From Caldisericia bacterium (lineage in GTDB: Bacteria; Caldisericota; Caldisericia; B22-G15), in contig JASEFN010000002.1 in the NCBI GenBank assembly GCA_030018355.1, forward strand, positions 172,699 to 236,698: a DNA stretch of 64,000 nucleotides, in the 5' to 3' direction. Below the pieces are notes generated by a model. The model ran no database searches and had not been told where the DNA came from. It saw only the letters and a program-made list of their open reading frames with translations. Positions 38,541 through 62,056 of the stretch are shown piece after piece. Each line of letters opens with the position of its first letter. Positions within the stretch are counted from its first letter, which is position 1. The translations under genes were made by a program, and so were the position numbers.

Positions 38541-38646
38541 TCTTACCTCCTTTTGAACTAATTTTTGCTAATTTTAACAAAATTAAACATTACATACAAT
38601 AATAAATGACTAATTATATTTTTGTATAAGGAAGCACTAATTTTTA

Positions 38647-38827
38647 ATTAAAGAATCTAAATTTATTTGGATGAATGGTGAATTTGTCAATTGGTGGGAT
38701 GCTAAAATTCATATATTATCTCATGTTATACATTATGGTTCAGGAGTTTTTGAAGGAATAAGGTGTTATAAAACAGATAAAGGACCTGAAATTTTCAGAT
38801 TAAAAGATCACCTTATTAGATTAAAAA
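38647..38827 (+). repeat. Direct repeat copy 1: 5' fragment of ilvE without a start codon
   Basis: These 181 bases are identical to 39404-39584, codons 3-62 of the ilvE gene. Translated in the matching frame they give [20 protein letters not shown] and onward, ending at a TGA just after the repeat. There is no start codon: the 23 bases before it differ from those before the real gene, while a further 13 bases (TAATTATATTTTT, 38611-38623 and 39374-39386) match again. It is a truncated gene copy. Confidence 0.95.
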
Positions 38828-38867
38828 TATGATAATATTATGTTACTATATTAAAAAAGGAGGAAAT

Positions 38868-39397: not shown

Positions 39398-40324
39398 ATG
39401 CCTATTAAAGAATCTAAATTTATTTGGATGAATGGTGAATTTGTCAATTGGTGGGATGCTAAAATTCATATATTATCTCATGTTATACATTATGGTTCAG
39501 GAGTTTTTGAAGGAATAAGGTGTTATAAAACAGATAAAGGACCTGAAATTTTCAGATTAAAAGATCACCTTATTAGATTAAAAAATTCTGCAAAAATTTA
39601 TAGAATGGAACTACCATATTCAATTGAAGAGTTAAGGGAAGCAACAAAAGAGTTGATAAGAAAGAATGATTTAGAGTCAGCCTATATAAGACCAATAGCG
39701 TATAGGGGGTATGGAACAATAGCGCCAAATCCCTTGGGTGTTCCAGTAGAAGTGTCTATTATTGCATTTGATATGGGAAAATATCTTGGTGATGAAAATA
39801 TTAAAAAGGGAATAAATGTTTCAGTTTCATCTTGGAGAAAATTTGCTCCTGATACTCTTCCTGCAATGGCAAAAGCAAGTGGAAATTACTTGAATTCACA
39901 ACTTGCCTTAATGGAAACTGTAAGTTATGGTTTTGATGAAGCAATTCTTCTTGATTATTTTGGTTATGTTAGTGAAGGCAGTGGTGAAAACATTTTTCTT
40001 GTTAAAAATGAGATTCTTTATACACCTCCACTTTCTTCTTCAATTCTTGAAGGAATTACAAGAGACACAATTATAAAAATTGCAAAAGATATAGGAATTG
40101 AAGTAAGAGTTGAATTTATTCCAAGAGAGGCACTTTATGTAGCAGATGAAATGTTTTTAGTTGGAACAGCAGCAGAAGTTACTCCAGTTATAAGTGTAGA
40201 TAAAATTCCAGTTGGAAATGGCAGTGTTGGTAAAATAACAAGATTACTTCAAGAAAAATATTCAAAAATTGTTGAAGGAAAAGAAGAAGATAAATATGGA
40301 TGGTGTGATTATGTAAACATTTGA
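39398..40324 (+). CDS. ilvE: Branched-chain amino acid aminotransferase
   Basis: A 308-residue fold-type IV PLP aminotransferase. It opens [18 protein letters not shown] and has [11 protein letters not shown], the PLP lysine in AMAKASGNYLNSQLA (about residue 158), GFDEAILLDYFGYVSEGSGENIF, and GITRDTI. It interconverts valine, leucine and isoleucine with their 2-oxo acids. GGAGGAG site six bases before the ATG. Its first 62 codons are duplicated upstream. Confidence 0.95.
   Translation: MPIKESKFIWMNGEFVNWWDAKIHILSHVIHYGSGVFEGIRCYKTDKGPEIFRLKDHLIRLKNSAKIYRMELPYSIEELREATKELIRKNDLESAYIRPIAYRGYGTIAPNPLGVPVEVSIIAFDMGKYLGDENIKKGINVSVSSWRKFAPDTLPAMAKASGNYLNSQLALMETVSYGFDEAILLDYFGYVSEGSGENIFLVKNEILYTPPLSSSILEGITRDTIIKIAKDIGIEVRVEFIPREALYVADEMFLVGTAAEVTPVISVDKIPVGNGSVGKITRLLQEKYSKIVEGKEEDKYGWCDYVNI
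39404..39584 (+). repeat. Direct repeat copy 2, inside ilvE
   Basis: Second copy of the 181-base perfect repeat, offset 757 bases from the first. This copy is in the intact ilvE gene. Recombination between the copies would delete the small membrane gene and leave ilvE with the upstream flank of copy 1. Confidence 0.95.
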
Positions 40325-51866: not shown

Positions 51867-51875
51867 TGATATAAT
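51867..51875 (+). promoter_or_regulatory. Extended -10 promoter of alaS
   Basis: TGA-TATAAT followed by about 30 bases and an AAGGAGG ribosome site for alaS. Confidence 0.55.
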
Positions 51876-51917
51876 AATTAGAAAAGTTAATTTTTCTCTT
51901 TAAGGAGGTTAGAGATT

Positions 51918-54512
51918 ATTACTTCAGATAAGATAAGAAATGATTTTTTAAAATTTTTTGAAGAAAGAGATCACTTAATTTTACCCTCTTTTTCTTTGAT
52001 CCCAAAAGATCCAACTCTTCTTTTTACAGCAGCAGGAATGGTTCCGTTAAAATCTTACTTTCTTGGTGAAGAGGAACCTCCAAAAAGAAGAATAGCCACA
52101 TGTCAGGCTTGTTTAAGAACAAACGATATAGAACAAGTTGGTAAAACAATAAGACATCACACTTTTTTTGAAATGCTTGGGAATTTTTCGATTGGTGATT
52201 ATTTTAAAGAAGAGGCAATCTCTTGGGCATATACTCTTCTTACCAAAAATTGGGGTTTAGATAAAAATAGAATTTGGATTTCAATTTATCCAGATGATGA
52301 GGAGGCACTTAATATTTGGAAAAAAATTGGTATTCCTCAAGAGAGGATTGTTAAACTACCAGATAACTTTTGGCAGATGGGAGAGGAAGGACCATGTGGT
52401 CCTGATTCTGAAATTTATTATGACTTAGGAGAGGAATTTTATTGTAACGATCCTTCATTAGGTCCAGCATCCGAAGGAGATAGATTTATTGAGGTGTGGA
52501 ATCTTGTTTTTACTCAATTTGATAGAAAAAAAGATGGAACACTTAATCCGCTTCCAAGAAAAAATATAGATACTGGAATGGGTCTTGAAAGAATAACAAT
52601 GATTTTACAAAATAGGAAAAGTAATTTTGAGACAGATATATTTTTTCCAATAATAGAGAAGATAACAAAGGTTCTTAAATGTGATTATGATGAGAAAACA
52701 AAAATAAATATTAGAGTCATTGCAGACCACATTAGAGCAATTACATTTTTAATTTCTGAAAATCTATTTCCATCAAATGAAGGAAGAGGTTATGTTTTGA
52801 GAAGATTAATAAGAAGAGCCTTTTCTTCTGGATGGGCTCTTCAGGCAAGAGAACCATTTTTATATAAAATCTATCCTGTAGTTGTTGAAAAATTTAAAGA
52901 GCCTTATAAATTTTTAAGAATTGATGAAAAAATTGAGAAAGTTATTTTAAGTGAAGAAAAAACATTTATTGAGACACTTGAGAAAGGAATTGATATAATT
53001 GAGAATTTGGTAGAAAAAGCAAAAGAAGAGGGTAAAACCGAAATTTCTGGAAAAGATATATTTTTCCTTTATGACACATATGGTTTACCAGCAGAGGTTA
53101 TTGAAGATATTTTATCAACAAGAGGTCTTTCTTATAATAAAAAAGAATTTGAGGATGCTTTAAATCAGTCAAGAGAAAGAAGTAGAAAAATTGCAAAAGA
53201 ATCGAAAATATTTGAAGAGAGTTTAGATTACATAAAAATAAAAGAAGAATTTGGTGAGACAGAATTTATTGGATATGATACTTTAGAGAGCGAAGGAAAA
53301 GTTCTACTTTTAATGAAAAACGGTGGAAGAGTTCAAAAACTATCAAAAGGTGAAGAAGGATTGCTTATTCTTGACAAAACTCCATTTTATGGCGAAAAAG
53401 GCGGTCAAGTTGGAGATATTGGTGAAATAAAAGGAGAAAATTTATATATATCTATCTTAGATACAAAATCACCAGTTGAAAATTTAATAGTTCATATAAT
53501 AAGAGTTTTAGATGGAGAGATAAGAGAGGGAGATAAGGTTTATTCTTATGTTAATAGAAAAAGAAGAGAGGGAATAAAAAGAGCCCACACAGCAACACAC
53601 CTTCTTCATAAAGCATTAAGAGAGGTTCTTGGAGAACATGCAACTCAAAAAGGATCTCTTGTTTCAGAAGACTATTTAAGATTCGATTTTTCTCATTTTT
53701 CAGAAATTTCAGATGAAGAGTATCATGAAATTGAAAGAAAAATAAATAATTGGATTTATGAAAGTTTACCCGTTATAGTAAATTTTAAAAATATTGAAGA
53801 AGCAAAAAGAGAAGGTGCAATTGCTTTATTTGGTGAAAAGTATGGACAAATTGTAAGAGTTGTTTCTGTGGATGAACTAACAAAAGAGTTTTGTGGTGGA
53901 ACACATGTATCTAACACAATTGAAATAGGTGGTTTTAAAATAATTTCTGAAAGAGGAATTGGAACAAATTTAAGAAGAATTGAAGCAATAACTGGTCTTA
54001 AGGTTATAGATTATTTAAACAAACTCTCAAAAGATTTTAAGAATTTGTCTCTTTCTCTTTCTGCAAAAGATGATGAAGTCATCTTGAAAGTTCAAAAATT
54101 AAAAGATAATATAAAGGAACTTGAAAATATTATTAGAGTTTTAAAAGAAAGATATTTTGATCTTTTACTTGAAAATGCAATAAAAAATTCAATTAAAATT
54201 AAAGAATCAAAGTTAATTTTAATTCAAGATAAGATTCTAAATCCACAAGATAGCTTCTCTATCTTTGATAAATTAAAAGAGAGAGAAAAAGAATTTATAT
54301 TTATTTTCCTTTCAAATAAAGACTTAAAAAATATTTCTATATTTATTTCAGATTTATTAAAAGAAAAAATTTCAGCAAAAGAGATTCTTAACTTTTTAAA
54401 TTCAAAATATGGAGGCAAGGGAGGAGGTAAAGAGGATATTGCACAAGGAAGAATTGAAAAGGTTGAGTTAGATTTAAATTTGATAAAAGAATTTTTAATT
54501 GGAAAAATATAA
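51918..54512 (+). CDS. alaS: Alanyl-tRNA synthetase, apparent AUU start
   Basis: An 864-residue AlaRS. The class II core has DPTLLFTAAGM (motif 1 region), RHHTFFEMLGNFSIGDYFK (motif 2) and GMGLERI (motif 3). The editing domain has HTATHLLHKAL (HxxxH) and the zinc partner CGGTHV. The C-terminal C-Ala domain ends with GGGKEDIAQG. The first canonical start codon (TTG, 51996) lies inside the conserved core, yet the frame is open upstream and reads TSDKIRNDFLKFFEERDH, which matches the universal AlaRS N-terminus. The only start choices after the AAGGAGG are ATT at 51915 or 51918 (six or nine bases away). Confidence 0.95.
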   Translation: MTSDKIRNDFLKFFEERDHLILPSFSLIPKDPTLLFTAAGMVPLKSYFLGEEEPPKRRIATCQACLRTNDIEQVGKTIRHHTFFEMLGNFSIGDYFKEEAISWAYTLLTKNWGLDKNRIWISIYPDDEEALNIWKKIGIPQERIVKLPDNFWQMGEEGPCGPDSEIYYDLGEEFYCNDPSLGPASEGDRFIEVWNLVFTQFDRKKDGTLNPLPRKNIDTGMGLERITMILQNRKSNFETDIFFPIIEKITKVLKCDYDEKTKINIRVIADHIRAITFLISENLFPSNEGRGYVLRRLIRRAFSSGWALQAREPFLYKIYPVVVEKFKEPYKFLRIDEKIEKVILSEEKTFIETLEKGIDIIENLVEKAKEEGKTEISGKDIFFLYDTYGLPAEVIEDILSTRGLSYNKKEFEDALNQSRERSRKIAKESKIFEESLDYIKIKEEFGETEFIGYDTLESEGKVLLLMKNGGRVQKLSKGEEGLLILDKTPFYGEKGGQVGDIGEIKGENLYISILDTKSPVENLIVHIIRVLDGEIREGDKVYSYVNRKRREGIKRAHTATHLLHKALREVLGEHATQKGSLVSEDYLRFDFSHFSEISDEEYHEIERKINNWIYESLPVIVNFKNIEEAKREGAIALFGEKYGQIVRVVSVDELTKEFCGGTHVSNTIEIGGFKIISERGIGTNLRRIEAITGLKVIDYLNKLSKDFKNLSLSLSAKDDEVILKVQKLKDNIKELENIIRVLKERYFDLLLENAIKNSIKIKESKLILIQDKILNPQDSFSIFDKLKEREKEFIFIFLSNKDLKNISIFISDLLKEKISAKEILNFLNSKYGGKGGGKEDIAQGRIEKVELDLNLIKEFLIGKI

Positions 54513-61278: not shown

Positions 61279-61297
61279 AAAAGTGGAGGATTTTTAG

Positions 61298-62056
61298 ATT
61301 AAAGATAAAGATTTTCTTGGTTCACAAGGAAAATTAATTGATATTTTAGAATTTATTTTTTTAAAAGATGAACCATATATTGATTTAAGTGAGATATCAG
61401 ATCTTTTTAAATTAAGTAAATCTGGAAGTTATAGAATTTTATCCATTTTAGTAAAAAAGGGTTTTTTAGAACATAAAAAGGGTGATGCCAGATATTTTTT
61501 AACAAAAAAAATTTTTGATATTTCTAAAAAATTAATTTTTAAAGAGCCAATCTACTTTATCATAGAAAATATTTTAGTTGAATTAGGAAATAAATTAAAA
61601 GAAGAAATATACTTTTTAAAAATTGAAAATAGTGAATTAAAAATTATCTATTCAAATTCAAAGAAAAACAATTATGAGTTTTTTCCTATTCATGCAACAT
61701 CATTTGGCAAAGTAATTTTATCCTTTTTAGATAATTCAAAAAGAAAAGAGATTTTTAATAAAATTAATTTTGAAAAGTATACTATTTATACAAAAGATAA
61801 TTTAAATGAATTTTTAAAAGAAATAAAAAAGATAAAAAAAGATGGATTTTCTTTATCAATTGAAGAATTTACTTATGGAATATGTGATTTATCATTTCCT
61901 ATTTTTGACAATGTTCAAGATAAAGTTTATTCTCTGGGAGTTAGATTTTCAAAAACAAAACTATCTGAATTATATCTTAATGAGATGATTCAAGTTTTAA
62001 AACAAACAAAAGATTTATTGGAAAAAAATCTAATTAACTTTTACAAATTTAAATAA
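61298..62056 (+). CDS. IclR family transcriptional regulator, apparent AUU start
   Basis: A 252-residue intact frame with no ATG, GTG or TTG until close to its end. An N-terminal winged helix (KLIDILEFIFLKD, DLSEISDLFKLSKSGSYRIL, KGDARYFLT) is followed by an effector domain (FFPIHATSFGKVILSFL; FSLSIEEFTYGICDLSFPIF) in the order seen in IclR regulators. A TAG stop lies directly before the ATT at 61298, and GGAGG lies eight bases before that ATT, so ATT is the natural start. It may be co-transcribed with pilC, 20 bases upstream. Target genes unknown; the GH99-like gene downstream is a candidate. Confidence 0.82.
   Translation: MKDKDFLGSQGKLIDILEFIFLKDEPYIDLSEISDLFKLSKSGSYRILSILVKKGFLEHKKGDARYFLTKKIFDISKKLIFKEPIYFIIENILVELGNKLKEEIYFLKIENSELKIIYSNSKKNNYEFFPIHATSFGKVILSFLDNSKRKEIFNKINFEKYTIYTKDNLNEFLKEIKKIKKDGFSLSIEEFTYGICDLSFPIFDNVQDKVYSLGVRFSKTKLSELYLNEMIQVLKQTKDLLEKNLINFYKFK

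Follow-up and report, generated by a model that had tools for sequence, protein, structure and literature searches.

An alanyl-tRNA synthetase gene almost certainly initiated at AUU in a Caldisericia bacterium, and the recurrence of AUH starts in its lineage

Given that alanyl-tRNA synthetase (AlaRS) is an essential enzyme, an alaS gene without an ordinary start codon ahead of its conserved sequence raises the question of where, and by what means, its translation begins. Such a gene lies in a stretch of 64,000 nucleotides (hereafter the window; G000:C2:172699-236698, 27% G+C) from the 1.4 Mb draft genome of a Caldisericia bacterium. The original prediction placed the start at AUU, regarding two consecutive ATT codons behind an AAGGAGG as the only candidates, and offered deliberate throttling or an unusual initiation system as explanations. 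We compared the locus in the window genome (G000) with those of three members of the same genus (G001, G002 and G003), of a further member of the same family, f1 (G004), and of a sister family, f3. AUU, AUC and AUA are collectively written as AUH, and the coordinates of the relevant features are collected in Table 1.

Table 1. Features of the alaS locus and of a second AUU-started gene, in window coordinates
Feature	Position	Strand	Details
Likely extended -10 promoter element TGATATAAT	51867..51875	+	From sequence; kept in 4 genus members (alignment)
Shine-Dalgarno AAGGAGG	51902..51908	+	Invariant in five relatives (alignment)
alaS, alanyl-tRNA synthetase	51915..54512	+	865 codons + stop; Pfam tRNA-synt_2c, tRNA_SAD, DHHA1
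First ATT, preferred start	51915..51917	+	6 nt after GGAGG; ATC at same position in G001, G002
Second ATT, possible alternative start	51918..51920	+	9 nt after GGAGG
First canonical codon TTG, rejected as start	51996..51998	+	26-27 codons into conserved AlaRS sequence
IclR-family regulator, second AUU-started gene of the window	61285..62056	+	GGAGG 61285-61289, TAG 61295-61297, ATT 61298

The encoded protein contains the class II (A) catalytic, SAD editing and DHHA1 domains (Pfam), and has no full-length counterpart elsewhere in the genome, where a second match (C1:255951) covers only the editing/C-terminal part; the rare start codon is indeed found in an essential gene. From the upstream stop codon to the TTG at 51996 the frame contains no ATG, GTG or TTG, which leaves the two ATT codons as the only candidates, as had been proposed. 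The in-frame stretch 5' of this TTG reads IITSDKIRNDFLKFFEERDHLILPSFS and matches the N-terminus of solved AlaRS structures, aligning from Thr3 onward with the solved chains (e.g. 1riq from its residue 4), and this N-terminal part is conserved and aligned without internal gaps in the five family genomes. With G000 as reference, 9 of the 15 changes in the 25 codons 5' of the TTG fall in third positions in the comparison with G003, 13 of 20 with G001 and 14 of 21 with G004, and dN is lower than dS across these codons in all four comparisons of G000 with its relatives. These patterns indicate that the region before the TTG is coding and evidently under protein-level selection, in agreement with the claim that the first TTG lies inside the conserved core and that the true N-terminus is encoded upstream of it. 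As a control we used alaS from other bacteria: of 80 loci, the rule used assigned a canonical start to 79, and the remaining one has an ATG 9 codons up. Since canonical starts are found throughout the control loci, the missing canonical start in G000 is not a matter of chance.

The Shine-Dalgarno (SD) sequence ahead of the two ATT codons has a duplex energy of -11.8 kcal/mol, a value within the top 15% by strength for 749 genes (with the anti-SD assumed, the 16S rRNA being absent from the assembly). A search with the bacterial SSU model found no 16S rRNA gene in the G000 assembly, despite its stated completeness of 100%. In G000 genes ATG most often follows GGAGG at 5-6 nt, with 80 of 333 genes at 6 nt, 25 at 9 nt and 4 at 3 nt; the first ATT is therefore favored over the second, the spacing of 6 being the commonest in the genome and that of 9 less so. 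The second ATT is also not conserved, its place being taken by CTG in G003, CTC in G001 and G002, and AAG in G004. Taken together with the coding evidence, alaS almost certainly initiates at AUU behind a strong SD, with no normal start codon. Judging from the extended -10 element, the transcript would have a leader of about 30-35 nt; an automatic promoter scan gave just one weak match near alaS, which overlaps this element. Searches for Rfam leaders (T-box, riboswitch) gave no match in the window at the gathering score and none near alaS at a relaxed threshold, and the folding of the leader is not above that of shuffled sequences. Elsewhere in the window, a short frame at 38641-38832 repeats the first part of an aminotransferase-like gene at 39398 without its start codon, and resembles a partial duplicate or a remnant.

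An ungapped comparison of the start sites in the family gave AGGAGG TTA GAG ATT ATT ACT in G000, AGGAGG TTT GTT ATC CTC AGT in G001, AGGAGG TTT ATC ATC CTC AGT in G002, AGGAGG TAT ATG AGT CTG ACT in G003 and AGGAGG TAA ATG ATT AAG ACA in G004. At spacing 6, G000 and G004 carry ATT and G001 and G002 carry ATC, the latter two both showing AAGGAGG-N6-ATC at the aligned position. AU, the first two letters of the start codon, is kept in G000, G001 and G002, and the third letter varies. G003 and G004 have an in-frame ATG at 3 nt from GGAGG, a spacing that occurs in about 1% of genes. Thus, among the five family genomes AUH without ATG is confined to G000, G001 and G002, and the non-AUG start of alaS is not family-wide. 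Comparison with relatives, proposed as a check by the original prediction, consequently speaks for a genuine AUH start where G001 and G002 are concerned, but not in G003 and G004, which have the closely spaced ATG. Given that spacing, initiation of alaS may be weak in these two genomes as well. The likely history, whose direction we infer from the sequences, is that an ancestral, ill-spaced ATG disappeared both from G000 and from the line of G001 and G002, leaving the better-spaced AUH codon as the start. In the sister family f3 alaS has ATG, GTG or TTG.

To place alaS in a genomic context we read G000 over 1.20 Mb and G003 over 1.12 Mb, obtaining 922 ortholog pairs, and accepted AUH starts in G000 where an SD precedes an AUH codon at a conserved N-terminus without a usable canonical alternative. 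This kind of scan, also suggested at the outset, recovered about six genes, alaS among them, i.e. approximately 0.5% of genes or six per 1.4 Mb. One is infC, with an ATT start in all five f1 genomes, and another, found via G003, codes for a PhoH-like ATPase (the family being named by eye), with ATA behind GGAGGTG likewise in five of five. A gene at C1:123346 for a DUF58-like membrane protein, so named from a reading of resemblance as it has no Pfam match, has AAGGAG followed by an ATC start in each of the four genus members and apparently overlaps the end of the preceding gene. A transglutaminase-like gene at C2:164793 has ATT in both G000 and G003, with a weaker SD. Finally, the ortholog of the IclR-family regulator in the window displays GGAGG-N8-ATA in G003; this regulator confirms the expectation of a second such gene within 64 kb, a dense local occurrence when set against about six per 1.4 Mb. 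The SD energy is -12.3 kcal/mol for infC and ordinary, at -9.3 to -5.8 kcal/mol, for the other three AUH genes (anti-SD assumed). Several candidates were rejected, namely C4:96122/D5:72542, where the GGAGG lies inside the 3' end of the upstream gene (which we take to be rtcB), C3:210545 and C3:26739, which have an ordinary ATG close by, and many antisense or internal frames emerging from the SD scan.

Reading 400 kb of G018, a member of f3, yielded two further AUH genes, named by eye as ffh and a histidine kinase. The ffh (SRP54) gene has ATT in all six f3 genomes (G018, G022, G026, G014, G010 and G006), preceded by AGGAGG at spacing 6 in five of them and by gggaggg 7 nt upstream of the ATT in G006, and the spacer bases between SD and ATT have diverged among these genomes; elsewhere it has ATG (three f1 genomes) or GTG (one f2 genome). 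The f3 ffh is one more essential gene beginning at AUU, and annotations probably truncate it. The histidine kinase (G018:C1:576178-577473, - strand) has an apparent ATT start behind AAGGGGGG. The 80 control loci, with 510 ORFs, showed no convincing AUH start, numbers too small for a significant difference in rate. As these starts are common to relatives and recur in further genes, they represent a real habit of the lineage. For comparison, a published reconstruction covering 36 groups, with 61,358 ancestral AUG starts, recorded a single change from AUG to AUU (PMC5622118), such counts being dependent on annotation.

Two readings would restore a canonical start to alaS. One of the ATT codons might be a miscalled ATG, GTG or TTG, the genomes being draft assemblies; however, such a base or assembly error is excluded for practical purposes by G001 and G002: these are separate assemblies, at a protein identity of about 70%, and likewise have no canonical codon but ATC at the matching position. 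The pattern also recurs over many assemblies in the PhoH-like, DUF58-like and ffh genes, making this reading highly improbable. Alternatively, translation might begin at the TTG at 51996, a legal start and the one chosen by a mechanical ORF caller, to give an AlaRS shorter by 27 residues. Yet there is no SD pairing before this TTG (duplex energy +3.7), conserved residues of the solved AlaRS structures would be deleted, the strong upstream SD would be left purposeless, and G003 has TTA at the equivalent codon, all of which render such a start very unlikely.

If initiation occurs at AUU, the machinery itself might be unusual, as the original prediction had entertained. An initiator-type tRNA with a CAU anticodon and the GGG/CCC anticodon stem is present in G000, and no initiator tRNA with a changed anticodon was found in 1.2 Mb of this genome (85% of the assembly). 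Its one infC gene, also singled out for inspection, codes for a full IF3 with both domains. Given this tRNA, the intact infC and the restriction of AUH starts to a small fraction of genes, there is no evidence for a novel initiation system. The IF3 residue at the position of E. coli Arg116 may matter for fidelity. It is Asp in G000 and G003, Glu in G001 and G002 and Lys in G004, and Arg or Lys in E. coli, G. stearothermophilus and T. thermophilus. The Asp or Glu of the genus, which we treat as a lead only, would fit a lineage-specific relaxation of IF3 (or of the ribosome) under which AUH codons would serve almost as ordinary starts and build up through drift; but the rarity of such starts, and the AUH-started infC and PhoH-like genes of G004 despite its Lys, make this improbable. 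Instead, alaS in the genus is very probably translated from a near-cognate AUH codon by ordinary machinery, aided by the strong SD. Under this mechanism the AAGGAGG helix would position the 30S subunit with the AUU at 51915 (less likely that at 51918) in the P site, where the ordinary fMet-tRNA(CAU) would read it with the third codon base mismatched, so that the protein would still start with Met. As IF3 normally disfavors AUH, the output of AlaRS would be lower and possibly IF3-dependent. The lineage has fixed such starts in several unrelated genes, special initiation machinery being unnecessary. We infer the use of AUU by ribosomes, the reduced output and any role of IF3.

To our knowledge, few bacterial genes besides infC have an AUU, AUC or AUA start. 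In E. coli, infC and pcnB start at AUU, with inefficient, IF3-modulated initiation (Binns and Masters 2002, as cited in PMC13009471). Like alaS these are AUU-started chromosomal genes, but they code for IF3 and poly(A) polymerase, whereas alaS specifies an essential aminoacyl-tRNA synthetase and has either AUU or AUC depending on the species. Staphylococcus aureus has AUH starts in infC (AUA), cvfC1 (AUU), ccpN (AUA) and citZ (AUA), and where its AUU/AUA sites have extended SDs, they reach about 10%, and up to 30%, of AUG output (PMC13009471). The parallels extend to the occurrence of several AUH starts with strong SDs in an AT-rich genome, mostly kept in relatives, and to a transcription regulator among the genes concerned, comparable to the IclR protein; the S. 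aureus cases, however, rest on ribosome profiling and reporters and ours on comparative evidence, and the genes differ except for infC. The AUU start of Borrelia burgdorferi pncA/BBE22 (PMC13398362) was similarly missed by annotation, leaving the protein listed in an N-terminally truncated form although the full form is required for function; unlike alaS it is a single case on a plasmid, with a solved structure. In Streptomyces, sigR has a genus-conserved, non-canonical GTC start behind AGGAGGTG that is repressed by IF3 (PMC5472188), the GTC codon and the demonstrated repression being features of sigR and not of alaS. The reduced output at S. aureus AUH sites and the holding down of the Streptomyces GTC start by IF3 make throttling likely, and the AUU start probably lowers AlaRS output. 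A search of the open-access literature, subscription papers being outside its scope, turned up no bacterial alaS or ffh described as starting at AUU. Thus, single AUU-started genes are already known in other bacteria, and what is added here is a lineage that repeats AUH starts in several core genes.

These precedents also bear on whether the AUH starts are regulatory, with alaS, infC and the PhoH-like gene (and ffh in f3) responding to the level of IF3 or the supply of initiator tRNA, which would couple translation capacity to initiation fidelity. The inclusion of the AUU-started infC in the set, the repression of sigR by IF3 and the retention of AU with a changing third letter in G000, G001 and G002 are consistent with this possibility; but the set differs by family, with ATG in the f1 ffh and canonical starts in the f3 alaS, and the same pattern could arise by drift where an AT-rich genome is combined with strong SDs. 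We therefore entertain it tentatively, as a complement to near-cognate initiation by ordinary machinery and not as a replacement for it. That in this class of bacteria AUU, AUC and AUA starts mark a small core gene set (infC, alaS and the PhoH-like gene, with ffh in f3) as a standing regulon, read out through the choice of start codon and with its translation depending on the level of IF3 or the fidelity of initiation, is more doubtful.

Gene callers that assume ATG, GTG or TTG would shorten proteins of this kind, AlaRS by about 27 residues, and AUH starts are for this reason probably undercounted in AT-rich lineages with strong SDs. Scanning for conserved coding sequence before the first legal start makes their number testable. 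If they prove regulatory, the AUH starts of these bacteria would connect IF3 with aminoacylation and protein targeting.
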